DNA from: Bolinopsis microptera | Lineage: Eukaryota; Ctenophora; Tentaculata; Lobata; Bolinopsidae | DNA length: 64,000 nt | Assembly (NCBI RefSeq): GCF_026151205.1 | Contig: NC_087078.1 | Span: 1,257,675 to 1,321,674, forward strand | Direction: 5' to 3' | Shown here: positions 721 to 59,583 of the stretch, in pieces | How positions within the stretch are numbered: the first letter of the stretch is position 1 | How the letters are laid out: each line of letters opens with the position of its first letter | Program-made: the position numbers and the translations under genes | Notes under the pieces: generated by a model | What the model saw: the letters and a program-made list of their open reading frames with translations, nothing else | Databases searched by the model: none | What the model was told of the DNA's origin: nothing

Positions 721-3107
721 GTGCCAAATTTTGTGAAGAAGCTCACATCTGACAAAATACCAGTGTTCGATCAGACGGAGATATTGTCAATATCCTGCAA
801 AGACATACTAGACAGTATCCCGGTGTTGGCTGATTACGTCATCAATGACGTCATCAAGCACTGTGAGAAGGCTCTGGAACAGACCCAAGCTGTACCGAGA
901 TTGTTCAGGCGGACTAATAGGGAGGTTAGTGCCACAGGGGCCTTCTTTTAAAACTTCATTTCCAATTCGCACGTGCATATTTTTGAACATGCACTCACCG
1001 TTTATCACGTGTCTTATCACGTGTCTTATCACGTGTCTTATCACGTGACTTATCTACGAATATTCTCCATCCAGATGCCGACAGAGCCACTAGGATACGT
1101 GTCCCAGTTGATAGGACCGATAGAGACGGATATATACAACTCTGTGCTACCTGACATAGTCAGACAAGAGTGGTGCTCCAAAACAGCTCACCAACTTGTT
1201 ACCAGGTTAGTTATGATCACGTGACTTGTTACCATGACGACGTATGACGCACCACCCCTCCCCTCTCCTGATAATATATCTAACGATTAATGACAGTTAA
1301 AAGATAACCCCATCTCCCCAGATATAGTGAGACAGTGGCTGAGATCCTTATCTCCCTCCGCAAGACAGAAGACAGTTTGGCCATGTTGAAACGAGGTCGG
1401 AAGTCAGCAGCCCAGACCGCGAGCACGACTAACTCCTGTACTGACGAAGATAAGATCAGAGCGCAGTTGAAACTTGATGTTACCGAACTAGGGGCCAAGG
1501 TGAGATTTGGAAGAAATAGCACGTGCTTGCTTTATACTATTATAATTGCACGTGAATCAATGGTTCAATTCTTTTTCTTCGAATACGCTTTATAGTCCAG
1601 TCATTTATGGACATGTGCCTGCAAATTTTCAGATACCCACGAAACTTTGCACAGACCTTCCCAAAGGTATGAATAAACGATTTTCGGTTGGAGACATTTT
1701 TTTTACTTTGGGCAAAACCCAGGAGGGCCACGCCCATATTGACCCAATAACGTAACTGACCCCTTGCTTCTGAAGGTCGTAGAGACTTCAAAATAGGCTT
1801 AAACGAAGCCGCATATGCATGTTTATATATAATAAGAGTTATTGATCAACACGCCTAAAATCCTTACTTTTCGAGAAATTCGCCAAAAACCATTTTGGGC
1901 GTGGCGCTGAGCCGATTTTACTAACTTTTGATAGGATTGTGATAGAGTCTTTGGATAGAGTGCAAAAGAACCGCAATTGGCATATTTATATATGACTTAC
2001 GAAGAAACATATGCCTTAAAGTGCTTACTGTTTCAGTTATTGGCGAAAAACTGATTTTCGGTTCCAGAAATCATGCAAAAATATGGGTATGTGGTACATT
2101 GGGCTATGAAGGCCTTAGAGATTTTTGAATGAGTGCAAATTGTGCAGAATGGCCATGTTTATATACAACTTATGAAGCAACATGCACCCTAAAATGCTTA
2201 CTTTTCGAGTTATTAACATAGAACGGGAGGCAAAAATGGCTGATATAACCAATTTTGCTCTATTTTGTGCAAATTTTCTCTGTTTTTCCCCCAAATAACT
2301 CGAAAAGTAAGCATTTTAGGGTGCATGTTGCTTCATAAGTTGTATATAAACATGGCCATTCTGCACAATTTGCACTCATTCAAAACTCTCTAAGGCCTTC
2401 ATAGCCCAATGTACCAAATACCCATACTTTTGCATGATTTCTGGAACCGAAAATCAGTTTTTCGCCAATAACTGAAACAGTAAGCACTTTAAGGCATATG
2501 TTTCTTCGTAAGTCATATATAAATATGCCAATTGCGGTTCTTTTGCACTCTATCCAAAGACTCTATCACAATCCTATCAAAAGTTAGTAAAATCGGCTCA
2601 GCGCCACGCCCAAAATGGTTTTTGGCGAATTTCTCGAAAAGTAAGGATTTTAGGCAATGTGTTGATCAATAACTCTTATATAAACATGCATATGCGGCTT
2701 CGTTTAAGCCTATTTTGAAGTCTCTACGACCTTCAGAAGCAAGGGGTCAGTTACGTTATTGGGTCAGATGGGCGTGGCCCTCCTGGGTTTTGCCCAAAGT
2801 AAAAAAAATGTCTCCAACCGAAAATCGTTTTATCATACCTTTGGGAAGGTCTGTGCAAAGTTTCGTGGGTATCTGAAAATTTGCAGGTACTAACCCAAAA
2901 ATGTCCGTAAATGACTGGACTATTAGTGTTTTCGTTATTTCTTTTGTTTTAATTCTGGGTTTTATCAGTATAGTAAATCAGATAAGTGTGTAACATGATC
3001 GGTTGACCATTGTGATTTAATTTTGCTACAAATTTCAGTTAGACATAATGGGTATTCCTAAAGGAGAGGAATTCGAGAAACTACAGAACTTGGTTGCTAA
3101 GCGTTAG
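721..3107 (+). CDS. COG2: COG2, conserved oligomeric Golgi complex subunit 2, C-terminal exons
   Basis: COG2 is a subunit of the COG tether on the cis side of the Golgi, which guides retrograde vesicles that recycle glycosylation enzymes. Four coding exons are visible: 721-924, 1075-1205, 1322-1499 and 3039-3107. They have consistent phases, AG acceptors and GT donors, and give 193 residues. The join of the first two exons reads RRTNRE then MPTEP, matching the conserved RRTNRE segment of animal COG2. Exon three carries YSETVAEIL and a DEDKIRAQL block like the human DDDKIRLQL. The last exon matches the family's extreme C-terminus and stops with TAG at 3105-3107. Earlier exons lie to the left of the window. 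The introns at 925-1074 and 1500-3038 hold an E-box array and a foldback element. The stop codon belongs to the first unit of a minisatellite. Identity rests on remembered similarity, supported by intron phase. Confidence 0.93.
1003..1050. repeat. Four 12-bp repeats, each with CACGTG
   Basis: Four head-to-tail copies of TATCACGTGTCT, the last with GACT, sit in the COG2 intron. Each carries the palindromic E-box CACGTG. It could be a binding cluster for bHLH factors or just a short tandem expansion; the sequence alone does not decide. Confidence 0.85.
1593..2922. mobile_element. Complete foldback (palindromic) element in a COG2 intron
   Basis: The element is one long palindrome. The left arm, about 1593-2250, is the reverse complement of about 2290-2922, around a short loop near 2270. 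Its ends are TAGTCCAGTCATTTA and the complement, flanked by TTA on both sides (1590-1592 and 2923-2925). A TTA duplication is usual for PIF/Harbinger-type insertion, but no transposase is present, so the class is an inference. It sits inside the intron between the last two COG2 exons. Confidence 0.85.
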
Positions 3108-3275
3108 AACTTAGTTGCTCAGAGTTAGAACTTGGTTGCTCAGAGTTAGAACTTGGTTGCTCAGTGTTAGAACTTGGTTGCTCAGAGTTAGAACTTGGTT
3201 GCTCAGAGTTAGAACTTGGTTGCTCAGTGTTAGAACTTGGTTGCTCAGTGTTAGAACTTGGTTGCTCAGAGTTAA
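3087..3275 (+). repeat. 21-bp minisatellite starting in the COG2 stop-codon segment
   Basis: There are nine contiguous 21-base units. Unit one (3087-3107) is the last seven codons of COG2, encoding NLVAKR and stop. The following units read NLVAQS or NLVAQC and stop in the same frame, and vary mainly at two positions. The array then runs through the start of the 3' untranslated region. Because 21 is a multiple of three, eight of the nine units present an in-frame TAG (TAA in the last). Confidence 0.93.
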
Positions 3276-3686
3276 CAGATTTAAAAACAGTCCTACAGGG
3301 TTTTCTTGTGCATGTTTTATTTTTAACAGAAGATAAGAGATAATAATGTATCTTGACAATTAACTGAGATAGTTTTTCAACAAAATACTATACAAACTTA
3401 AAGCTGCTGTTTATTATTTTATTATTTCATTCTTTGAATCCCAAAACAATATTGAATTTGTATACGTCCGAAGTGTACCTATTATTTTAGAAGGAGTGAC
3501 ATTAACTTATTCAGAGTTCTTATTAGAATGGGTTTGCGCTTTCTGTGTTAAATTATTGATAAGTTGTATAACATTAGTATTAATTAGTTGTATAATTAGT
3601 ATTGTTTGATAAGATCGAGATACTCGAGTTTATTAACATACATTTTCAAATTCGTTCATCAATAATTTATCTAACTCGTTGGTAGG
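3276..3686. other. AT-rich spacer between convergent genes
   Basis: Lies between the COG2 stop array and the 3' end of the minus-strand membrane protein. No exon or dispersed repeat seen. COG2 polyadenylation should fall here, but I see no clean AATAAA close to the stop. Confidence 0.5.
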
Positions 3687-4061
3687 TTAAGTATTGCAAT
3701 GTTCCAGCATGTACGCCCATTTTTCCTTCACGTTGACGTTGGGATACTTTTCCTCTATACGATTGAGCTGATTGGTGCCATACACAAGGCTAAGAGCCAC
3801 GATCAGGACATCCAACACAAAACATACAACCCATATACCGTACATTGCGAAACGTATGTGATCGTACAGTGTCATTGCTACTAACCCTATGAAAAGGGTT
3901 AGGGAACAGAAGCCCATGTAGCATAACTCCAACTTTCTCTTAGTATTGAACAATTGTCTCATCTCCTGCACGTGATCAGCTGCTGACACGTGATCTGCTG
4001 GCACGTGAACTATTAGTAGTACTTTATGCTCGTAGTTCTCGTCCACTACCAAACTGTCCAT
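3687..4061 (-). CDS. Hypothetical 124-residue protein with two membrane helices
   Basis: A single open frame from ATG to TAA with no need for introns; I do not recognise the family. The N-terminal half is polar, with VHVPADHVSAADHVQ, whose DNA carries three CACGTG sites about 18 bases apart. Two hydrophobic spans follow, around residues 48-65 (CSLTLFIGLVAMTLY) and 74-92 (IWVVCFVLDVLIVALSLVY), with a short charged turn between. The C-terminal tail, NRIEEKYPNVNVKEKW, is charged and amphipathic. The layout suggests a small integral membrane protein with both ends on one side. It is convergent with COG2. Length and ordered hydrophobicity argue against a chance frame, but it has no known relative I can name. 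Confidence 0.6.
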   Translation of the reverse strand: MDSLVVDENYEHKVLLIVHVPADHVSAADHVQEMRQLFNTKRKLELCYMGFCSLTLFIGLVAMTLYDHIRFAMYGIWVVCFVLDVLIVALSLVYGTNQLNRIEEKYPNVNVKEKWAYMLEHCNT

Positions 4062-4178
4062 CTTGCTACCACTTTGTTACACTGGTGTTGGTTTTTAACA
4101 AGAATTGCGCCCGTTGTTTCGTTTTGGCGGACGCTAGATTTCCATTCACTATAACTATAAATATAGGCTTCAATAATA

Positions 4179-4233
4179 TGTGTATCAATATTATTTAATC
4201 AGCTTACTTCATAATAATAATATTGATACACAT
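4179..4233. repeat. Perfect short inverted repeat upstream of the two-helix gene
   Basis: ATGTGTATCAATATTATT at 4179-4196 is exactly complemented at 4216-4233 with a loop of about 20 bases. It sits about 120 bases before the start codon at 4061 on the minus strand. It may be a tiny MITE remnant or a regulatory hairpin. Confidence 0.7.
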
Positions 4234-4536
4234 CAGAACACTATACTAGCATGCCAAGTACATAAATTGTTTTTTTTTAAATCGTCATCAGTTATACAAT
4301 ATCAATTAGTTTTAAAAGTGCCCGGAACATTGAAACTACATCATTTTTGTAGCTTTAATTCGATACAAAATGTAAATTTATGGGCATCATGATCAGAAAT
4401 TACCAAGAAGATTCAATTAATCTTTCGATCGATTAACGCAGGCCAAGAATTTAAAATGTTGAGACAATCGAAAAGCTGAAAATCTATAAAATGCAATGAA
4501 ATGATTTACTAAACAATGCTGAATTCCAGACTGGGC

Positions 4537-4745
4537 TAATAGTAATATTATTTTGCTCGCCCACAAATTATCACGTGACCGAAACAGTTTTTGCCTATAA
4601 TTTTTCAGGGAAATTTTACCTTATGTCATTGGGGGTGATTCGGAATCAGCGTTTAAAAATACATCGATATAAGTTACTTTCATACCGGCTCAAAACCTTG
4701 TTACAAGATTTTTTTAAATTTGGGCGAGCGATTTATTGGAAACGG
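4537..4745. mobile_element. Short MULE-like MITE remnant
   Basis: It shares the block TCACGTGACC...ACAGTTTTT, the phrase GGTGATTCGGAATCAGCG and the terminal GGGCGAGCGATTTA with the elements at 11196-11575, 12280-12520 and 15673-17392. The ends are degenerate and no clear target duplication is left. Confidence 0.6.
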
Positions 4746-4789
4746 ACAGATTGTGCAATAATAAGACAATTATTCAATAAAACAATAAT

Positions 4790-5803
4790 AGTATAAAGTC
4801 CTTAAGTAAACACATACCGTACGTGTACATATAAACGTACGTTTTACAATTTTTGGAATGTGGAATGTAGCGATGATATTCATTGATAATGATCTGGTAT
4901 CAGCTGGCAGATTTTAGGAATTTGTCTGCCGTTTTTAGGGATTTTATTTATTATTGACACTCTGAACGCAATATGTTTACTGATCCTTAAAGTTAGGAGT
5001 CGTTCACATACTACCAACTACGTAATCAGCCGAGGGGGGAGGGGGTTCCCAAATGATTACGTAACCAGAATTTTATTTTTTACCCTCTAGAGTCTAGAAT
5101 AATGTGACAATATTTTAATTCAAATTTCACTCTGATAGTAATAAAATTTAGAAATTGATCGGATATCTGACTTTAGTAAGAAGTTTATAAGGTTATTGCA
5201 GATTGGCCGGATATCAATCAGAAATTTCATTAATTTCCAGAGAAAATTCTCGAGCTAGGTCCTAAAAAATATTTTCGGCTCATAGTCATACTCATAATGA
5301 TGAGGGTGATGGTCGAAATGAGCTGTCAACTGTGAAGAAAAGTAGTTTCCAGGAAAACTTTAAAATTTTTGACTAGATTCGGATTATATGTACATTGAAA
5401 GGCAGACTCCCCGCTTCCGAACTCGTATTGCATAATAGCTAGGGGAGCCTCGACTCCAAGATCATCGGGGGGGGGGGGGGAGGGGGTTCAGCCTGTCAAG
5501 TGTCAATCTTCATATTGTTTATGAACACTAAGCCTGGGTACCTCGATGAGTTTTAGCCAACAAAAGGGCCTCAGTATTAAAAAATTCAATACACCGACAC
5601 GTACAAGCGAATAAAATTCAGGGGAAACAATTCCAAACAAAGGAAGTCATTTCTATAACCAAAGACGGTGAATCAGTGACAGTACGTGATACTGATAACG
5701 GTAATAATAATATTACTATTTACGCGGCCGCGCTCAACCTGTTAAACTTAATGTTATGTCATTCCCAATTCCGCCGAATCTATATTTATGTTTATTTATG
5801 AAC
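4790..5803. other. Spacer with no gene seen
   Basis: AT-rich, with an oligo-G run near 5467-5480. The bases around 5400-5460 resemble the repeated blocks inside the nested element at 16274-17262 (CGAACTCGT, then GGGGAGCCT). No coding signal found. Confidence 0.45.
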
Positions 5804-5875
5804 ATAATAGCCTGAGAAATATCAAATAACGGAGTAGTTCGCTGTTTATTAGTCTCATGATTGAAATACTGATAT

Positions 5876-8800
5876 AGTAAGGGGAAAAGTGGTCGATTTA
5901 AGGGTTCCGTTGGATTTGAATGTTCACAAGGATTTCTCAACGGAATATGGTAGTTAGGACCCCTACGAACATAATTAGACTTGTTGCCAATTTTGTATCT
6001 CAACAGAAACACCACTTTTACCACTTTTTACCACCTTTGTACCACCTTTCTGGTTTGCCAAATATCTTTAGTTGTGAACGTCGTAGAAGGCTGCAAATTA
6101 ACCTAGAATGTTTATCTTATCAAGGAGTAAAACTTTTGTATGAAAACTTGTTACATTGGACAATCAGCTAATTGGATAATTACCAATTAGTAAATCACCA
6201 AAAAAAGTGAAAATTTTTTATTGGCTCAAAATGATTGAAATCGTTTGAAACACGGAGAAATGTAGTTTTTAGAAAAACTTCAAAAATGTTTCACTTAAAA
6301 TTTTTTTTCGAGACTTTTTCGAGACTTTTTTTCGAAAAAAGTTTGAAAATTTGAAAATATATTATTCCGCCAAAATTGCTCGAATTGCATGAAACGTGGA
6401 TAAAAATGCTTTGCAGAAAAACTTCGAAGATTTTTAGATTGGGGAATACTAAAATCATCAATATTTGAAGTTGGAGTTCAGTAAATCTCGACATATTTTA
6501 TTAATTAAGAATAGCTTAGCGGAAAGGGCTGAACCTGAAAAAGGTTAACCACACAATATTAGAGTTTCATAACTAATTACAATACAGCTTTATCAAATTC
6601 CACATAAAGAAACAGCACAAAAGGACCATTTAAGATCGAACCGATTTTACCTGCTGTACTATCATTTAATTGATTTCAATGATCAAAACCTCTGTACCGT
6701 CAATCTTGCCAATCTATACCGGGTATCTGAATGTACCGGACCTCTTATTTACCTCTATAATTAGACACAGTTGTGCAAGAAATGCGATTTCTCACAGGGG
6801 TTTCTTTTAACTGTGCACTTTTTGTCACTCTCGCAAGAGGCCCGGTATTATAGGGGGGTATAGGAAGCGAGTGTAAATCTACCTTTCATCATCCACTGTG
6901 GCTTTTTTGTATTGTGAATGCGCATGCCGCTTCGTTTGCTATGCCAGAATCCAGATACCTCAAATAACCCTCATATCATATTGCCAGGGTGAAGGGTCGG
7001 GATAGAGCTGGAGATAGCATCGAGAGGTTGCTAGAAATAGCTAGATTTAGAGTAAACTGGTGGTAGCTAGGTGGTGCTAGCATGGATGTAGCAGAACGTA
7101 GCTACACGGGGTTTCATTGGAGTTGGTTATTTTAATGGCCAAAGAGTGCCGGAACTAAAGTTACTTAAGATTGCAGTTGAGGGGCAGTGTAAACCACGGT
7201 GTAGTCAGGGATACAGAGCTACAGTGCAGGAGTACTGCAAAAGAACAGTGCAAGTGATACAGTCTGCAACAGTAAAACGCCGAAGAAGCTAGACTTAGAG
7301 TGAACTGATGGAAGCTGGGTGGTGCTAAAATGGAGGTAGCAGAACTGAGAACGTACTACATGATGAAAACATGAAAACTAAGGCTGGTTGAGACCTAAAA
7401 AGATGTGAATCTGTCCTGATAGATCCATTGAAGAGCGAGTAGCGAAGAGTAAGATCACTAACCTAAAGCTCTAAAGAAGAAGAGGGCTAAAGAGACTCAC
7501 TTTGATCAATAAATCCGGTACGGCAAGGTCTGTAGCCTTGATAAGAAGATACCATGAAGTAATTCATGCGGAAAAGTCGATTTATATAAAGGGTTTCGTT
7601 GTATCTAAAAAGTGTGGGTCAGTCTCTCTGTTTTCATCAGATTCTGATGAAAGGCTGTTAAGCTCAGGACGGTGATCTTAATAGGTCGGATAGCTGTACC
7701 TGGTTGCTTCCAGCCCACCCTTGTCGCTTGAAAATAAGTTCTCACCCCACCTCTTCCAAAAATGCAGTTACTAGAGCAGGAAACTCTTCTTCCTCCTCTT
7801 CTTTCAACCCAAACACAATCAGGTTCCAGCTCCTCTCCTCCTCTGCAGCCACAATCTTATCTCCTTCTTCGGCGTTTTACTGTTGCAGACTGTATCACTT
7901 GCACTGTTCTTTTGCAGTACTCCTGCACTGTAGCTCTGTATCCCTGACTACACCGTGGTTTACACTGCCCCTCAACTGCAATCTTAAGTAACTTTAGTTC
8001 CGGCACTCTTTGGCCATTAAAATAACCAACTCCAATGAAACCCCGTGTAGCTACGTTCTGCTACATCCATGCTAGCACCACCTAGCTACCACCAGTTTAC
8101 TCTAAATCTAGCTATTTCTAGCAACCTCTCGATGCTATCTCCAGCTCTATCCCGACCCTTCACCCTGGCAATATGATATGAGGGTTATTTGAGGTATCTG
8201 GATTCTGGCATAGCAAACGAAGCGGCATGCGCAATGCGCATTCACAATACAAAAAAGCCACAGTGGATGATGAAAGGTAGATTTACACTCGCTTCCTATA
8301 CCCCCCTATAATACCGGGCCTCTTGCGAGAGTGACAAAAAGTGCACAGTTAAAAGAAACCCCTGTGAGAAATCGCATTTCTTGCACAACTGTGTCTAATT
8401 ATAGAGGTAAATAAGAGGTCCGGTACATTCAGATACCCGGTATAGATTGGCAAGATTGACGGTACAGAGGTTTTGATCATTGAAATCAATTAAATGATAG
8501 TACAGCAGGTAAAATCGGTTCGATCTTAAATGGTCCTTTTGTGCTGTTTCTTTATGTGGAATTTGATAAAGCTGTATTGTAATTAGTTATGAAACTCTAA
8601 TATTGTGTGGTTAACCTTTTTCAGGTTCAGCCCTTTCCGCTAAGCTATTCTTAATTAATAAAATATGTCGAGATTTACTGAACTCCAACTTCAAATATTG
8701 ATGATTTTAGTATTCCCCAATCTAAAAATCTTCGAAGTTTTTCTGCAAAGCATTTTTATCCACGTTTCATGCAATTCGAGCAATTTTGGCGGAATAATAT

Positions 8801-19441: not shown

Positions 19442-22400
19442 TCAAAAACAATCTGTTGACATGCCCTGATGGCTACCCGAATGTGCTAAGTACGTTACTT
19501 GTGCTGGGACTGCCTCCATCTTGTCCATCATATCCGAAGCCTCCGGATTCTTTACCATTTCTTGTGCAATTTTCTTGCGTTTTAGCACCAGACCTGAATT
19601 TCCTCCTGTAAAAAAAAGAACGGTTCCAAAACTCGCTTAGAAAGTTTTACCGTTCCTTTCTTGGGGTTGTTTTTTCTACCTTAGCGGGTATAAATTAAAC
19701 TGTTTAAATACAAACCCAAATTGTAGCGTCTCTAAAAAGTGGGGACCCGGATAGCTTTTAAACTTACCAATTGTCACCATGGCAACAGTGAGGACCACAC
19801 ACGATGCATTGGCTCCCTAAAATTTGAGGACTGAGTAGCTCATTATTTTCGAGCAAAGCTTATCCCCAATTCCCAATAATATTAGAAACGATTTGAAATA
19901 GAATAATAACAATAATATCTAAACAACCAAGCAGTTAAAGCTTTATCTCACTGTCAGAAGGATAATTAATCTTGTAATTGGTTAATCTTGCTTACAACAC
20001 CTACTTTATCTCACTGTCAGAAGGATAATTAATCTTGTAATTGGTTAATCTTGCTTACAACACCTACTTTATCTCACTGTCAGAAGGATAATTAATCTTG
20101 TAATTGGTTAATCTTGCTTACAACACCTACTTTATCTCACTGTCAGAAGGATAATTAATCTTGTAATTGGTTAATCTTGCTTACAACACCTACTTTATCT
20201 CACTGTCAGAAGGATAATTAATCTTGTAATTGGTTAATCTTGCTTACAACACCTACTTTATCTCACTGTCAGAAGGATAATTAATCTTGTAATTGGTTAA
20301 TCTTGCTTACAACACCTACTTTATCTCACTGTCAGAAGGATAATTAATCTTGTAATTGGTTAATCTTGCTTACAACACCTACTTTATCTCACTGTCAGAA
20401 GGATAATTAATCTTGTAATTGGTTAATCTTGCTTACAACACCTACTTTATCTCACTGTCAGAAGGATAATTAATCTTGTAATTGGTTAATCTTGCTTACA
20501 ACACCTACTTTATCTCACTGTCAGAAGGATAATTAGGCTTGTAATTGGTTAATCTTGCTTACAACACCTACTTTATCTCACTGTCAGAAGGATAATTAAT
20601 CTTGTAATTGGTTAATCTTGCTTACAACACCTACTTTATCTCACTGTCAGAAGGATAATTAATCTTGTAATTGGTTAATCTTGCTTACAACACCTACTTT
20701 ATCTCACTGTCAGAAGGATAATTAATCTTGTAATTGGTTAATCTTGCTTACAACACCTACTTTATCTCACTGTCAGAAGGATAATTAATCTTGTAATTGG
20801 TTAATCTTGCTTACAACACCTACTTTATCTCACTGACAGAAGGATAATTAATCTTGTAATTGGTTAATCTTGCTTACAACACCTACTTGAACATAATGAA
20901 ATAATCTACTTTAGTACTGGCACTATAGCAGTAACTTAACAACATTTATTGTAACTTAAAGTCTAAAGAGAAGATCTGCAATAATTAATATCAAATAACG
21001 GAGTAGTTCGCTGTTTATTAGTCTCATGATTGAAATACTGATATCTGGATATTATCCGGTTGGAAGAGACAAGGACAAGTGAAACAAGGAAGTTAGGAGT
21101 AAGGGCAAATTTTCGGCGTCAACGCCATCTTCAGGCTCAAATTATTTGTTATATGGACACGTTCATTTGAGTTTGAGGATATTGGTAAATATAAGTGACC
21201 CTATTAAAAGGCACAGTGTAGTTGACTTTGTCACACTATGAAATTACTTAAACCCTTGATGGTTAGGATAATCGTCTCATCCTCTAGGCTAACTTTGTCA
21301 CATAACGATATCTTAATCAGGTGATAAGATATCGCTTAAATACGGCCGGCACGGAAATGGTTACATTGTCACACTATAAACATGTGACGGAGTAAATATG
21401 GACCCCTTGCTGCCGTTTTTGACCAAATTTTTGAGTGTCCAGTTGATTGGATGGGTACATATGACCATTACCTACATATTTGACGACTTTTTTCGTTAGA
21501 TGGTGCATTCAGGTTTACTCTGTCACACATTAAAGAAAATATGTGATGAATGTTTAGGGCACCCTGATAAGCAATGCTGAGTAGTGTAAGTTTATTTGAT
21601 GGCCTGGAAGTGCTGGGAATTGTTATTATATCATATAGTCGTAAGGAATTAAAACATAGAAGGCACAACCAAGCTTACTTTGTCACATAATCTTGATAAT
21701 GTCTGAACATGTGTGAAATTGAACAAATAATGATATACCAGCTTAAACCCCTTATATTATACGTACTATGGATCAAACAACACTGCTAGTACCATGCACC
21801 AGTCACATAAATCATTATCAGGTGGTAATATGTTAACAGTGTCACAATTAAACTACCGCTACATGGTCAAAAATAGGGTAATTTAGTCACAAAAAATTAT
21901 TATAACTCTGTTAGCTCCTTGCTGGCAAAATAACTAGTTTATCGAAATTTTTTTGATGATAAAGTTACATAGTATTCTAATAGAAGTATAGTTCTTCAAA
22001 ATAGGGGCAAGACATGTTTACTTTGTCACATCAGTTATTATAAGAGTTAGGTAATCGTCATCAGATTAAAAGATATTTTTCGTAGTTTGGATCGATTAAT
22101 ACTTTAATATACCTGTAATAAAACCTATGCCAATTTTAACACACTATCTTGATACTATTGGGGCAGGGAAAGTTAATTTTGTCACATTTTTAATGTCTTT
22201 GACAAATTAATCTAAATTTAAAAAATTGAGTTCTTATGTTCTGGACAATATTCTTCCAATCGTTTCTGAAAGAATGTTGAATTCTAATAGAGTTATAGAT
22301 CTTCAAAATAGGGGCAAGACATGTTTACTTTGTCACATCAGTTATTATAAGAGTTAGGTAATCGTCATCACATTAACATATATTTTTTGTAGTTTGGATT

Positions 22401-25400
22401 GATTTATATAGGTAATAAAGCAGCCTATGCTAATTTTTACACACTATCTTGAACTTGTTGGGGCATGAAAAGTTAATATTGTCACATTTTTAGTGACTTT
22501 GACAAATTTAACCTAAAATTGTTAAACTTAAGCTCTGATGTTCTGGACAATATTCTAATAGAGGTATAGAATATAGATCTTCAAAATAGGGGCAAGACAT
22601 GTTTACTTTGTCACATCAGTTATTATAAGAGTTATTATAAGAGACTATTTCATTTTTTAATCATTGTTTTTAATCTATTTACGATTTCGTATAATTTTTT
22701 GTGACAATGTAAACATCAACTGATCTTAACTTGCATCAACTACATTGTCATCATATAAAATTTTCCCGCCTTTCAAACCAAAATCAGATATAAATTATTC
22801 GCCCAAAATTTTAAATTTCATATATTGTGACAGAATTAACCTCATTTCCCAATAACCAAGTGCCTGTATTAGCTAACTATTCAAAACAAAATATTTTAGG
22901 GCTATGCTTGGTAGAGCAACCATAAAATAATGAGTTGAAAGGATTTTTAGGACACCTCACAGTAGAATAGAGGTATGGTATCATGAGTGTGACAAAGTTA
23001 CCCAAATATTGCCTTGTAACCGTTCGATCCGTGCCCATTAACCAATGTTGTATCATAATTGTTAGATTGACCTAATTTACTATATTTCAGACCAAGGAAT
23101 GATAATTAGACAACTGCAGTTAACTAAGTCACACAAAATGTGACATTTGAAACATTATAGTGCCTAACAACAATAGATTTTCTTTCTGAGCGGTGCATAT
23201 GGGAGTATGGGTTACGTGGCTAATGTTCAGAACTTCTGAACGTGCTAGGTTAATAGATGTCAAAATTAAGCCACTATCGTCAAAAACGCTATTATTTTTG
23301 TTTACCAATATCCTCAAACTCAAATGAACGTGTCCATATAGTAGTGTTGAAAGTATTAATACTTTCAACACTACTATATAACTTTATCTCACTGTATTAA
23401 TACTTTCAACACTACTATATAACAAATAATTTGAGCCTGAAGATGGCGTTGACGCCGAAAATTTGCCCTTACTCCTAACTTCCTTGTTTCACTTGTCCTT
23501 GTCTCTTCCAACCGGATAATATCCAGATATCAGTATTGCAATAATTAAGACCAACCCAAATGTCTATCAATCCCTTATTAGGTACTCGTCTCACCAATGA
23601 TCTTATTGCTCAGGATTTCAAGTTTGGTATTATACACCTCAACAACTGACGTCTTATGTTATCTAAAGGAGTTCCGTGGCAGTGCCATAGAGGCCCTTAC
23701 TTAGTTCAGTGGCAGTGCCATAGAGGCCCTTACTTAGTTCCGTGGCAGTGCCATAGAGGCCCTTACTTAGTTCAGTGGCAGTGCCATAGAGGCCCTTACT
23801 TAGTTCCGTGACAGTGCCATAGAGGCCCATACTTAGTTCCGTGACAGTGCCATAGAGGCCCTTACTTAGTTCCGTGGCAGTGTCATAGAGGCCCTTACTT
23901 AGTTCCGTGGCATTGTCATAGAGGCCCTTACTTAGTTCCGTGACAGTGCCATAGAGGCCCATACTTAGTTCCGTGACAGTGACATAGAGGCCCTTACTTA
24001 GTTCAGTGGCAGTGCCATAGAGGCCCTTACTTAGTTCCGTGGCAGTGCCATAGAGGCCCTTACTTAGTTCAGTGGCAGTGCCATAGAGGCCCTTACTTAG
24101 TTCCGTGACAGTGCCATAGAGGCCCTTACTTAGTTCCGTGGCAGTGTCATAGAGGCCCTTACTTAGTTCCGTGGCATTGTCATAGAGGCCCTTACTTAGT
24201 TCCGTGACAGTGCCATAGAGGCCCATACTTAGTTCCGTGACAGTGACATAGAGGCCCTTACTTAGTTCAGTGGCAGTGCCATAGAGGCCCTTACTTAGTT
24301 CCGTGGCAGTGCCATAGAGGCCCTTACTTAGTTCAGTGGCAGTGCCATAGAGGCCCTTACTTAGTTCCGTGGCAGTGCCATAGAGACCCTTACTTAGTTC
24401 AGTGGCATTGCCATAGAGGCCCTTACTTAGTTCCGTGGCAGTTCCATAGAGGCCCTTACTTAGTTCCGTGGCAGTGCCATAGAGGCCCTTACTTAGTGGG
24501 TGAACACGAAGTTTGCCAGGAAAATAAACTAAAAGAAGAGAGAAATACTAACCCTACTCGAAGTTCTGTAATAATCAGTCTCTTCAAAGTTAGCGCCACA
24601 ATTCTCAATATCTGACTGCGAGGAAGTGAAATGGGTCCGAGTCAACTTGGGGCCAGTTATAACATCGTCATCTGCACACGTGACGTCATCAGAATTAGAT
24701 ATGACGTCATCAGACACTACGTCACCGTGGGATAACTTGACGTTTAAAGAGGTGTGACCCTCACTCAGGTTGGAGAGCTTTGGGGAAGTGTTTAGTTTGT
24801 TGTAGCCCGAACAGTCATCTTGATCTGGAGTACCGGATAGTATCGCTCTGAAATAGACAGGATAATTAATATAATAATATTAGTATAATAATTATCATAA
24901 ATAGATATTCAGCTTAATTTGGAATATAATAGTCTTTAGGGTACAGTTTACCGCATTATATTAAGGTATTTTTAAGAATCATTTTTGTCGGTAAGATCCT
25001 GTTTTATAATAATATAATAATAATAGTCTTTAGTTTTGATCTATTTTGGGATACTGTTCATTAAATTAGGGTAATTTATTGGCGCACACTTTGACATTTT
25101 AATAGATTGATCGGGAATTCAAAAAGCGTGACGTTCGATTTAATTAATAAGTAAGAGAGCATTTAAATTTTGACGTTCCGTAATCCATTCAATAAATTCC
25201 AATTTTTCATTATTTTGTTTTTCTACCGAACTTTTAGCCGTTGGTGATAGGAACTTGTGTAGATCCTCGGACAAGTGACGCAATTCTCTTGGAGGCTTGC
25301 TTAAAACATAGTTGAGATCCAACTCCTCTTTTGGGCATGTTTAAGACATGTATCCAAGGTTCCGTTTTTTTGTGTTAGTTGCTTTCCATATGTGTGGTAT

Positions 25401-31225: not shown

Positions 31226-31647
31226 TTTATATCTCCGCCAAAAGCAAATTTGTAAGCACTCACGCGCATTATATCCAAATGTGAGTTTAAATTTTCGCAT
31301 TGGATGGTTGCGCATTAGATGGTTACTATGCCGCGCCCTGCGCTGCAGCATTACAATTTATTCCATCAATTGAGACCTTCGCCCCGCATTTAAGCTACTC
31401 GTCTGACATCAATTATTCTGTCTTATTTTGTTCCATTTTAAACTGTACGATTAATTGTGAGTGTGTTTTATATACATTTGAGTTCACAGTTGTGAACTTT
31501 ACTTTCAGTATTTTATGTGACAGAGATTAGTTTAACTAATATTTGCTTCTCCTAAATCAGCTTATTTTTAAACATTTGATCAATTATTCTGTCTTATTTT
31601 GTTCCATTTTAAACTGTACGATCAGTTGTGTATGAAAATTATAATGA

Positions 31648-33350
31648 TTGTCACGAGATGTTTGATCTAGTTATTAGAGTTGAGCTAATTCTAGTCCTTG
31701 TTATGACAGTATTAAAACTGTAATAATTGTCACGAGATGTTTGATCTAGTTATTAGAGTTGAGATATTCCTAGTCTTTGTTATGACAGTATTAAAACTAC
31801 AATAGTTGTCACGAGATGTTTGATCAAGTGGCTAGAGTTGAGCTATTCCTAGTCCTTGTTATGACAGTATTAAAACTACAATAGTTGTCACGAGATGTTT
31901 GATCTAGTTATTAGAGTTGAGCTATTCCTAGTCCTTGTTATGACAGTATCAAAACTACAATAGTTGTCACGAGATGTTTGATCTAGTTATTAGAGTTGAG
32001 CTATTCCTAGTCCTTGTTATGACAGTATTAAAACTACAATAATTGTCACGAGATGTTTGATCTAGTTATTAGAGTTGAGCTATTCCTAGTTCTTGCTATG
32101 ATGGTATTAAAACTACAATAGTTGTCACGAGATGTTTGATCTAGTTATAAGAGTTGAGCTATTCCTAGTTCTTGCTATGACAGTATTAAAACTGTAATAA
32201 TTGTCACGAGATGTTAGATCTAGTTAGTTGAGTTGAGCTATTCCTAGTTCTTGCTATGACAGTATTAAAACTACAATAGTTGTCACGAGATGTTTGATCT
32301 AGTGGCTAGAGTTGAGCTATTCCTAGTCCTTGTTATGACAGTATTAAAACTACAATAGATGTCACGAGATGTTTGATCTAGTTATTAGAGTTGAGCTATT
32401 CCTAATTCTTGCTATGACAGTATTAAAACTACAATAATTGTCACGAGATGTTTGATCTAGTGGCTAGAGTTGAGATATTCCTAGTCCTTGTTATGACAGT
32501 ATTAAAACTACAATAATTGTCACGAGATGTTTGATCTAGTTATTAGAGTTGAGCTATTCCTAGTCCTTGTTATGACAGTATTAAAACTACAATAGTTGTC
32601 ACGAGATGTTTGATCTAGTTATTAGAGTTGAGCTATTCCTAGTCCTTGTTATGACAGTATTAAAACTACAATAATTGTCACGAGATGTTTGATCTAGTGG
32701 CTAGAGTTGAGATATTCCTAGTCCTTGTTATGACAGTATTAAAACTACAATAATTGTCACGAGATGTTTGATCTAGTTATTAGAGTTGAGCTATTCCTAG
32801 TCCTTGTTATGACAGTATTAAAACTACAATAGTTGTCACGAGATGTTTGATCTAGTTATTAGAGTTGAGCTATTCCTAGTCTTGTTATGACAGTATTAAA
32901 ACTGTAATAATTGTCACGAGATGTTTGATCTAGTTATTAGAGTTGAGCTATTCCTAGTCCTTGCTATGACAATTGACAGTATTAAAACTACAATAGTTGT
33001 CACGAGAAGTTTGATCTAGTGGCTAGAGTTGAGCTATTCCTAGTTCTTGCTATGACAGTATTATAACTACAATAGTTGTCATGAGATGTTTGATCTAGTT
33101 ATTAGAGTTGAGCTATCCCTAGTCCTTGTTATGACAGTATTAAAACTACAATAGTTATAGTTGTCACGAGATGTTTCATCTAGTTATTAGAGTTGAGCTA
33201 TTCCTAGTCCTTGCTATGACAGTATTAAGACTACAATAGTTGTCACGAGATGTTTGATCTAGTGGCTAGAGTTGAGCTATTCCTAGTCCTTGCTATGACA
33301 GTATTAAAACTACAATAGTTGTCACGAGATGTTTGATCTAGTGGCTAGAA
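31648..33350 (+). repeat. 79-bp minisatellite, forward half, about 21 copies
   Basis: Units begin TTGTCACGAGATGTTTGATC and include GTTGAGCTATTCCTAGTCC and TATGACAGTATTAAAAC. Variants (TTATTAG or GGCTAG; GTT or GCT) recur in blocks. No spacers, so not CRISPR. Confidence 0.96.
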
Positions 33351-34577
33351 TTACTGTCATAGCAAGGACTAGGAATAGCTCAACTCTAATAACTAGATCA
33401 AACATCTCGTGACAACTATTGTAGTTTTAATACTGTCATAACAAGGACTAGAAATATCTCAACTCTAACAACTAGATCAAACATCTCGTGACAACTATTG
33501 TAGTTTTAATACTGTCATAACAAGGACTAGAAATATCTCAACTCTAACAACTAGATCAAACATCTCGTGACAACTATTGTAGTTTTAATACTGTCATAAC
33601 AAGGACTAGAAATATCTCAACTCTAACAACTAGATCAAACATCTCGTGACAATTATTACAGTTTTAATACTGTCATAGCAAGGACTAGGAATAGCTCAAC
33701 TCTAGCCACTAGATCAAACATCTCGTGACAATTATTACAGTTTTAATACTGTCATAACAAGGACTAGGAATAGCTCAACTCTAACAACTAGATCAAACAT
33801 CTCGTGACAACTATTGTAATTTTAATACTGTCATAGCAAGGACTAGGAATAGCTCAACTCTAGCTACTAGATCAAACATCTCGTGACAACTATTGTAGTT
33901 TTAATACTGTCATAACAAGGACTAGGAATAGCTCAACTCTAATAACTAGATCAAACATCTCGTGACAATTATTACAGTTTTAATACTGTCATAACAAGGA
34001 CTAGGAATAGCTCAACTCTAATAACTAGATCAAACATCTCGTGACAATTATTACAGTTTTAATACTGTCATAGCAAGGACTAGGAATAGCTCAACTCTAA
34101 TAACTAGATCAAACATCTCGTGACAACTATTGTAGTTTTAATACTGTCATAACAAGGACTAGGAATAGCTCAACTCTAATAACTAGATCAAACATCTCGT
34201 GACAATTATTACAGTTTTAATACTGTCATAGCAAGGACTAGGAATAGCTCAACTCTAGCCACTAGATCAAACATCTCGTGACAACTATTGTAGTTTTAAT
34301 ACTGTCATAGCAAGGACTAGGAATAGCTCAACTCTAATAACTAGATCAAACATCTCGTGACAACTATTGTAGTTTTAATACTGTCATAACAAGGACTAGG
34401 AATAGCTCAACTCTAATAACTAGATCAAACATCTCGTGACAACTATTGTAGTTTTAATACTGTCATAGCAAGGACTAGGAATAGCTCAACTCTAATCACT
34501 AGATCAAACATCTCGTGACAACTATTGTAGTTTTAATACTGTCATAACAAGGACTAGGAATAGCTCAACTCTAATAA
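33351..34577 (-). repeat. 79-bp minisatellite, inverted half, about 15 copies
   Basis: From 33351 the same unit continues in reverse complement (ACTGTCATAGCAAGGACTAG) to about 34577. The switch is abrupt, with no spacer, near 33350. Confidence 0.96.
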
Positions 34578-56642: not shown

Positions 56643-59583
56643 TATGGACACGTTCATTTGAGTTTGAGGATATTGGTAAACAAAAATGATAGCGTTTTCG
56701 ACGATAGTGGCTTAATTTTGACATCTATTAACCTAGCACGTTCAGAAGTTCTGAACATTAGCCACGTAACCCATACTCCCATATGCACTGCTCAGAAAGA
56801 AAATCTATTGTTGTTAGGCACTATAATGGTTCAAATGTCACATTTTGTGTGACTTAGTTAACTGCAGTTGTCTAATTATCATTCCTTGGTCTAAAATATA
56901 GTAGATTAGGTCAATCTAACAATTATGATACAACGTTGGTTAAAGGGCACGGATCGAACGGTTACAAGGCAATATTTGGGTAACTTTGTCACACTCAGAA
57001 TACCAAACCTCTATTCTACTGTGAGGTGTTCTCGAAAACCTTTTAACTCATTATTTGATGGTTGATCTACCAATCATAGCCCTAAAATATGTTGTTTCGA
57101 ATAGTTAGCTAATACAGGAACTTGGTTATTGGGAAATGAGGTTAATTCTGTCACAATATATGGAATTTTAAATTTTGGGCGAATTATTTATATCTGTTTT
57201 TGGTTTGAAAGGCGGGAAAACTTTACATGATGACAATGTAGTTGATGCAAGTTAAGATCAGTTGATGTTTACATTGTCACAAAAAATGATACGGAATCGT
57301 AAATAGGTTAAAAACAATGATTATATAGAATGAAATAGTCTCTTATAATAACTCTTATAATAACTGATGTGACAAAGTAAACATGTCTTGCCCCTATTTT
57401 AAAGATCTATATATTCTATGACTCTATTAGAATTCAACATTCTTTCAGAAAAAAATCGGTAGAATATTGTCCAGAACATCAGAGCTCAAGTTTAACAATT
57501 TTAGGTTAAATTTGTCAAAGTCACCAAAAATGTGACAAAATTAACTTTTCCTGCCCCAAAAATTTCAAGATAGTGTGTAAAAATGAGCATAGGCTGCCTT
57601 ATTACCTATATAAATCAATCCAAACTACGAAAAAGATCTGTTAATCTTATGACGATTACCTAACTCTAATAATAACTGATGAGTGATGTGACAAAGTAAA
57701 CATGTCTTGCCCCAATTTTGAAGATCTATAACTTTATTAGAATTCAGCATTCTTTCAGAAACGATTGGTAGAATATTGTCCAGAACAGCAGAGCTCAAGT
57801 TTACCAATTTTAGATTAATTTGTCAAAGACACTGAAAATGTAACAAAATTAACTTTCCTTGCCCCAACAATATCAAGATAGTGTGTTGAAATTGACAATT
57901 GACATAGGATGCTTAATTGCCTATATTAATCAATCCAAACGACGAAAAAGATCTGTTAATCTGATGACGATTACCTAACTCTAATAATAACTGATGTGAC
58001 AAAGTAAACATGTCTTGCCTCTATTTTGAAGATCTATAACTCTATTAGAATTCAACATTCTTTCAGAAACGATTGGTAGAATATTGTCCAGAACATCAGA
58101 GCTCAAGTTGTGACAAAGTAAACATGTCTTGCCTCTATTTTGAAGATCTATAACTCTATTAGAATTCAACATTCTTTCAGAAACGATTGGTAGAATATTG
58201 TCCAGAACATCAGAGCTCAAGTTTAACAATTTTAGGTTAAATTTGTCAAAGTCAACAAAAATGTGACAAAATTAACTTTCCCTGCCCCAACAATATCAAG
58301 ATAGTGTGTTAAAATTGGCATAGGATGCTTTATTGCCTATATTAATCGATCCAAACTACGAAAAATATCTGTTAATCTGATGACGATTACCTAACTCTAA
58401 TAATAACTGATGTGACAAAGTAAACATGTCTTGCCTCTATTTTGAAGATCTATAGCTCTTATCTATTAGAATTCAACATTCTTTCAGAAACGATTGGTAG
58501 AATATTGTCCAGAACATCAGAGCTCAAGTTTAACAATTTTAGATTAATTTGTCAAAGACGCTGAAAATGTGACAAAATTAACTTTCCCTGCCCCAACAAT
58601 ATCAAGATAGTGTGTTAAAATTGGCATAGGATGCTTTATTGCCTATATTAATCGATCCAAACTACGAAAAAGATCTGTTAATCTGATGACGATTACTTAA
58701 CTCTTATAATAACTGATGTGACAAAGTAAACATGTCTTGCCCCTATTTTGAAGAGCTATACCTCTATTAGAATACTATGTAACTTTATCATCAATGAACT
58801 AGTTATTTTGCCAGCAAGGAGCTAACAGAGTTATAATAATTTGTTTGTGACGAAATTACCCTATTTTTGACCATGTTGCGGTAGTTTAATTGTGACACTG
58901 TTAACATATTACCACCCGATAATGATTTATGTGACTGGTGCGTGGTACTAGCAGTGTTGTTTGATCCATAGTACGTAATATAAGGGGTTTAAGCTGGTAT
59001 ATCATTATTTGTTCAATTTCACACATGTTCAGATATCATCAAGATTATGTGACAAAGTAAACTTGTTTGTGCCTTCTGTGTTTTAATTCCTTACGACTAT
59101 ATGATATAATAACAATTCCTAGCACTTCCAGGCCATCAAATAAACCTACACTACTCAGCATTTGTTATCAGGGTGCCCTAAACATTCTTCACATGTTTTC
59201 TTAAATGTGTGACAGAGTAAACCTGAGTGCACCATCTAACGAAAAAACTCGTCAAATATGTAGGTAATGGTCATATGTACCCATCCAATCAACTGGACAC
59301 TCAAAAATTTGGTCAAAAACGGCAGCAAGGGGTCCATATTTACTCCGTCACATGTTTATAGTGTGACAATGTAACCATTTCCATGCCGGCCGTATTTAAG
59401 CGATATCTTATCAGCTGATTAAGATATCGTTAAGTGACAAAGTTAACCTAGAGGATGAGACGATTATCCTAACCATCAAGGGTTTGTGTAATTTCATAGT
59501 GTGACAAAGTCAACTACACTGTGCCTTTTAATAGGGTCACTTATATTTACCAATATCCTCAAACTCAAATGAACGTGTCCTTA
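56643..59583. mobile_element. Second TGTCACA-motif element, inverted and longer
   Basis: Starts and ends with the same inverted repeats as 21152-23338 and runs in the opposite orientation, so the motif mainly reads TGTGACAAAGTAAAC. The roughly 300-base inner block (GTAAACATGTCTTGCC, CCAGAACATCAGAGCTCAAG) is present about six times against three in the other copy. No Penelope-like repeats flank it. Confidence 0.87.

Follow-up and report, generated by a model that had tools for sequence, protein, structure and literature searches.

A concerted switch of predicted docking sites between two sibling transposon families in the ctenophore Bolinopsis microptera

Introduction

Transposons and gene control pose a common evolutionary question, still unanswered: how can a DNA-binding protein change what it recognizes when many sites must change too? 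The question is raised anew by a 64,000-nucleotide stretch of the genome of the ctenophore Bolinopsis microptera (contig NC_087078.1, positions 1,257,675 to 1,321,674; hereafter the window), in which a 2,181-base-pair (bp) element at 21155-23335 (+ strand), the founding member here of family A, is studded with copies of a short motif. A first-pass annotation, made from the sequence alone, had placed a non-coding element at 21152-23338, which proves right to a few bases, and had read the motif copies as a binding-site platform. Here we describe a sister family, B, in which the motif cores stay in place and the bases just upstream of them are switched in concert to a different spelling, a pattern that points to predicted docking sites for a protein that probably coevolved with them.

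Results

Two inward-facing arrays of a shared site

The element is a non-autonomous cut-and-paste transposon of the long MITE (miniature inverted-repeat transposable element) type: it has terminal inverted repeats (TIRs), target-site duplications and many dispersed copies, and lacks a transposase gene. Within it, GTCACA occurs 19 times, TGTCACA 15 times and the nine-base TTTGTCACA eight times, whereas 500 first-order Markov copies of the element contain them on average 1.1, 0.5 and 0.05 times, with maxima of 5, 4 and 2, respectively. The "more than fifteen" motif copies reported earlier are thus borne out for the two shorter cores and not for the exact nine-base motif. We define a predicted docking site as nine bases followed by the GTCACA core; in family A the site is spelled G-T-T-W-A-C-T-T-T-GTCACA, the first nine bases being variable.

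These sites face inward from both ends of the element, those of the left 1.45 kb lying on the + strand and those of the right 0.65 kb on the - strand, with one exception per side. Motif scanning and alignment of the two families place + sites of the left array at 21221-21235, 21288-21302, 21359-21373, 21513-21527, 21673-21687 and 21877-21891, together with a weak site at 21793-21807, whose upstream half is mismatched, and a site at 21832-21846; the exception on this side is a - site at 21383-21397. Five further + sites, identified by repeat comparison as well as by the family alignment, lie within duplicated units (22016-22030, the first of them, then 22172-22186, 22323-22337, 22472-22486 and 22601-22615), and the number of these units differs between copies of the element. 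The right array comprises - sites at 22700-22714, 22826-22840 and 22988-23002 and, from the family alignment, a palindromic pair made up of the exceptional + site at 23119-23133 and a - site at 23139-23153. The orientation turns at 22643-22668, a junction that is also present in a second copy of the element in the window and may have been left by an internal deletion. When the weak site and the two exceptions are set aside, the first two steps between the 16 remaining sites, counted from the left end, measure 67 and 71 bp, and the later ones 126-162 bp, apart from one step of 45 and one of 95 bp.

Comparison of the flanks of fourteen sites, keeping one of each duplicated kind, shows that pairwise identity is at the level of random pairs (0.282) in the outer flanks (0.287 from -60 to -27 and 0.281 from +15 to +60), and reaches 0.36 from -26 to -10 and 0.66 over the nine bases before the core, the core value of 1.0 being set by the choice of sites. 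These fourteen sites have nothing in common but the motif and the bases close to it, and thus cannot be accounted for by tandem duplication; for the inner units at 22016-22615, duplication stands as the origin.

A sister family in which the half-site is switched

One of the first genomic matches to the motif (locus L001) belongs to a relative that is 75% identical to the window element. A search with this relative, in a genome of 264.65 Mb and 232 contigs (the window lies on contig C7; contig C1 has 26,206,493 bases), returned identities of 90-100% among the best 40 of 1,258 candidates. The end sequence of this family B differs from the A-type end by two letters at both ends of the element, and is found as an exact match 138 and 137 times (control, 0), corresponding to roughly 140 elements. 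End repeats can be evened out by conversion. A complete B copy, L078, spans 2,439 bp with ATAT on both sides, and aligns with the window element at 77.5% identity over 2,161 columns; L001 and L078 are 98.4% identical over 1,300 bases.

The sites occupy matching places in the two families, and the bases upstream of the core differ systematically. At position -7, all 19 cores of the window copy carry T, and 17 of the 19 are changed in L078, to A in 15 cases and to G in two, against a background T-to-A rate of 7.7%. All five changes at -8 are to T and all ten at -6 are to A, so that each of the 32 changes at -8, -7 and -6 leads to T, A/G and A, respectively. The core itself is nearly frozen: in the 17 sites 3 of 102 core positions differ, whereas among 1,795 background columns the share is 22.8% (p = 5e-8), a count that drops two unswitched sites, namely the weak site and the site at 21832-21846, whose core is lost in L078. 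Motif identity is thus kept better than identity elsewhere in the element; decay at an equal pace was the outcome that would have spoken against the platform idea.

The switch does not depend on the duplicated units. Once three tandem duplicates are left out, T>A at -7 is seen in 13 of 14 sites (binomial p about 5e-14), whereas none of 3,000 random anchor sets scored above 6; this set of fourteen differs by one site from that used for flank identity. Nor is it peculiar to one pair of copies: T stands at -7 in 694 of 704 sites across 37 of the A copies fetched, while across four B copies (L001 in part) the 57 sites carry A in 49 cases, G in 6 and T in 2, both T's representing the same site, at 23119-23133, in L079 and L080. 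The genome holds 939 occurrences of one exact A spelling and 837 of one exact B spelling, with no occurrence of either reversed control; of 100 listed places of the A spelling, all of them on C1, 92 have a listed exact terminal repeat no more than 4 kb away. Drift does not give many dispersed sites one and the same new letter, and conversion would have moved the flanks as well. Together, the resistance of the core to divergence and the concerted switch of the half-site strongly support a binding-site platform, as the sequence alone had first led one to suspect. In several elements on C1 and contig C2, family B sites follow one another at 152-bp steps, a spacing similar to the amount of DNA wrapped around a single nucleosome.

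Structure, insertion and age of family A

Copies elsewhere in the genome stop at the same bases as the window element. Its ends consist of 35 perfectly inverted bases beginning with GGACACG (21155-21189, +, and 23301-23335, -, from repeat and end comparisons), or about 40 if mismatches are allowed; the first-pass annotation gave about 38. Flanking ATAT duplications lie at 21151-21154 and 23336-23339. Of 27 copies (L009-L035), all have perfect 4-bp duplications (ATAT in 20, TTAT and ACAT in 2 each, and AAAT, ATAC and TTGT in 1 each), as do 13 of 15 further copies (L043-L053 and L055-L058, with L054 omitted). The first-pass annotation saw no gene inside the element, and among open reading frames (ORFs) of at least 50 amino acids no frame lying wholly within 21155-23335 is longer than 66, leaving no sizeable one; in an Rfam scan of the element every family fell below its cut-off.

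In a genome search with the element, 28 of the best 40 of 1,705 candidates gave a single unbroken alignment longer than 2,150 bases, with identities of 96-100%. The 26-base end occurs 516 and 522 times when as many as 3 mismatches are allowed, as against 0 for the reversed control, which places family A at roughly 380 elements; both family sizes were obtained by subtracting end counts and halving, assume two ends per element, and count as A any B-type end with one further mutation. A possible third family, represented by six ends in which TIR position 14 is A or C, was set aside, each of these being one letter off the A-type end. Divergence among the 27 A copies is 0.2-3.0% (median 2.0%), indicating recent movement of family A, and from their sequences both families look young. 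Variants shared by at least 3 of these copies fall in none of 152 key columns as against 50 of 1,794 others (p = 0.03), which lends weak support to constraint on the lineages that jump.

The second copy in the window, at 56646-59580 (- strand), is 2,935 bp long, has extra duplicated units and is flanked by ATAT and TTAT, an imperfect duplication. Around the first copy, an outer inverted repeat (21026-21154 and 23417-23545) is part of another, MITE-like repeat that hosts the insertion. In the flank of L001 the host-repeat sequence runs uninterrupted through the insertion point with a single ATAT; this represents a related empty site, and indicates that the element jumped into the host repeat. 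The nested elements are flanked in turn by a 63-bp array (15 copies, 19941-20888) and a 33-bp array (25 copies, 23670-24497), and elsewhere in the window a 79-bp satellite forms two adjoining arrays of opposite orientation (31630-33342 and 33352-34577).

Some copies have more complex structures. At L054 (201-7493), two head-to-tail 2,389-bp units, each joining a left part of the element to other DNA, precede a complete element. Five elements (L062, L063, L064, L068 and L069) share one nested insert, read through in L063 with L073/L074, where it is 1.56 kb long and sits close to position 1872 of the element. The sharing suggests movement of the composite of element and insert itself. The motif also occurs in sequences that do not align to the element: a 331-bp tandem satellite (L077) holds TTTGTCACA, and TGTCACA is present in L076.

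A survey for an autonomous partner

Candidate partners were sought on C1 and C2 at ends that match the A type exactly; 10 pairs of such ends lie more than 3 kb apart and 14 ends are unpaired. Among the pairs, L039/L040, L041/L042, L044, L045 and L047 each contain an ORF with a match to RVT_1 or GIY-YIG (eight ORFs scanned), L048 and L049 are longer arrays, and L046 and L050 contain inserts that lack an ORF of 130 amino acids. The remaining pair, L043, holds a nested 5.8-kb element (2278-8067) between TTAA flanks. The ends of this nested element read GGGGGCA and its inverted repeats measure approximately 715 bp; one of its ORFs recalls a DEDD exonuclease by eye and is without a match in Pfam.

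For each unpaired end, 511 adjoining bases were read. Six match the element itself (L059, L061, L065, L070, L071 and L072) and five run into the common insert described above (L069 being judged from a neighbouring match); at L060, L066 and L067 the adjoining bases do not match the element. The 100 listed B-type ends include four longer pairs, at C1:15199632-15206716, C2:4138453-4143469, C4:12587202-12593889 and C5:23254676-23263541. The P-type transposase profile PF21787 found no match here and none in control genomes either, making this result uninformative.

Discussion

On the reading we favor, nearly all of the element's interior would be taken up by two arrays of docking sites that face each other. 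The sites would serve a sequence-specific protein that is provided in trans, probably coevolved with them, and is probably encoded by a partner element and used in transposition. Such a protein, a transposase or accessory protein encoded by the autonomous partner of each family, would bind the sites, line both ends, and bring these together for excision. That the sites point inward from both ends suggests that they act there, much like the subterminal repeats of En/Spm, which are recognized by TNPA and required for excision (excerpts of PMC2613891). A change in DNA-binding specificity may then have helped to split one family into two, with the protein altering its recognition and the sites following, or the reverse. 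We would extend this reading only tentatively, as possible yet rather doubtful, to a strict form in which the two sibling families, with some sixteen sites each, have been rewritten base by base to mutually exclusive spellings, and the protein of each family, conceivably an animal equivalent of the anti-silencing protein VANC, coats no elements but those of its family.

Transposons with arrays of this kind are known, and the first-pass statement that no such element had been described was too strong. The excerpts of PMC2613891 describe soybean CACTA elements (Tgmt* and Tgm1) with many short motifs inside both ends, held there to be bound by an element-encoded protein, note two motif subfamilies, and raise coevolution of repeats and binding protein. 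The likeness to En/Spm-type CACTA elements thus extends to two families with different spellings in one species; however, those plant elements have CACTA ends and 3-bp duplications, as opposed to GGACACG ends and 4-bp duplications in a ctenophore, and here the sites pair one to one between the families, so that the switch can be counted. VANDAL elements of Arabidopsis likewise carry motif arrays in non-coding DNA, with different motifs in related elements, and coevolution of protein and motif has been proposed for them (passages of PMC5735166); as described there, however, VANDAL motifs accumulate and change through tandem repeats, while the present changes are single-base changes at dispersed sites and only the inner units are duplicated. 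The target duplications resemble those of Sola2, given in part of PMC3627910 as 4-bp AT-rich AWWT sequences (ATAT, AAAT, ATTT): 27 of 27 here are 4 bp long and 21 of 27 fit AWWT. The TIRs of the Sola2 elements cited in that part measure 12-13 and 21 bp as against 35-40 here; a Sola2 transposase was not found, although no search was aimed at one, and without a transposase we do not file the element in Sola2. Among the titles listed in searches of open-licence papers, none names the element. What is remarkable relative to known docking-array transposons is the counted, concerted switch of sites.

Several observations weigh against the reading we favor. The survey of A-type ends on C1 and C2 revealed no autonomous partner among its pairs and unpaired ends. 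Two of the 19 sites are unswitched in L078, and one more in L079 and L080. Either spelling could be the older. Within family A, singleton variants are not significantly rarer in motifs than elsewhere (12 of 152 versus 222 of 1,794 columns, p = 0.12). The sites also span positions 76-1990 of 2,181, almost 90% of the element, which would seem to reach farther from the ends than end-pairing needs.

This broad distribution, with many sites about 150 bp apart and not just near the ends, would suit an array whose ligand is not involved in cutting and is instead an anti-silencing protein, encoded by the element, that protects it from repressive chromatin. VANC plays this part in the VANDAL elements of Arabidopsis and serves as a second model for an array-binding protein (PMC5735166, PMC10398659); its motifs, as outlined in PMC5735166, are 8-9 bases long, numerous per element, located in non-coding parts, and different in related VANDALs. 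We nonetheless regard this role as unlikely, since it would hardly seem to call for sites that face inward from both ends, and since VANC targets are described as changing via tandem repeats (PMC5735166), whereas the fourteen sites here are not mutual duplicates.

A host protein, such as a repressor, an architectural protein or a replication factor, whose sites the element carries or exploits, is a quite improbable alternative. The ctenophore Mnemiopsis does possess abundant zinc-finger looping proteins, CTEP1/2, and in placozoans the loop-anchor motif sits in the ends of a Mutator transposon (sections of PMC12221973); however, the CTEP1/2 motif given there is GC-rich, unlike the motif described here, and the closeness of the exact A spelling to element ends is hardly that of a general host site. 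Two young, coexisting families would moreover require two host specificities, and two spellings that both multiplied recently in one genome would be better fit by two element-encoded proteins than by one host protein. That the motif copies are functionless remnants of tandem duplication, as the inner units with their varying number might suggest, is scarcely credible given the random-level outer flanks of the fourteen sites, the constrained core, and the half-sites that switch in concert.

Some sixteen matched sites can be seen here in two states in one genome, in young-looking families of a deep-branching animal lineage. Coevolution of a protein with its sites becomes, in this setting, something that can be counted and tested, and two orthogonal docking systems may result.

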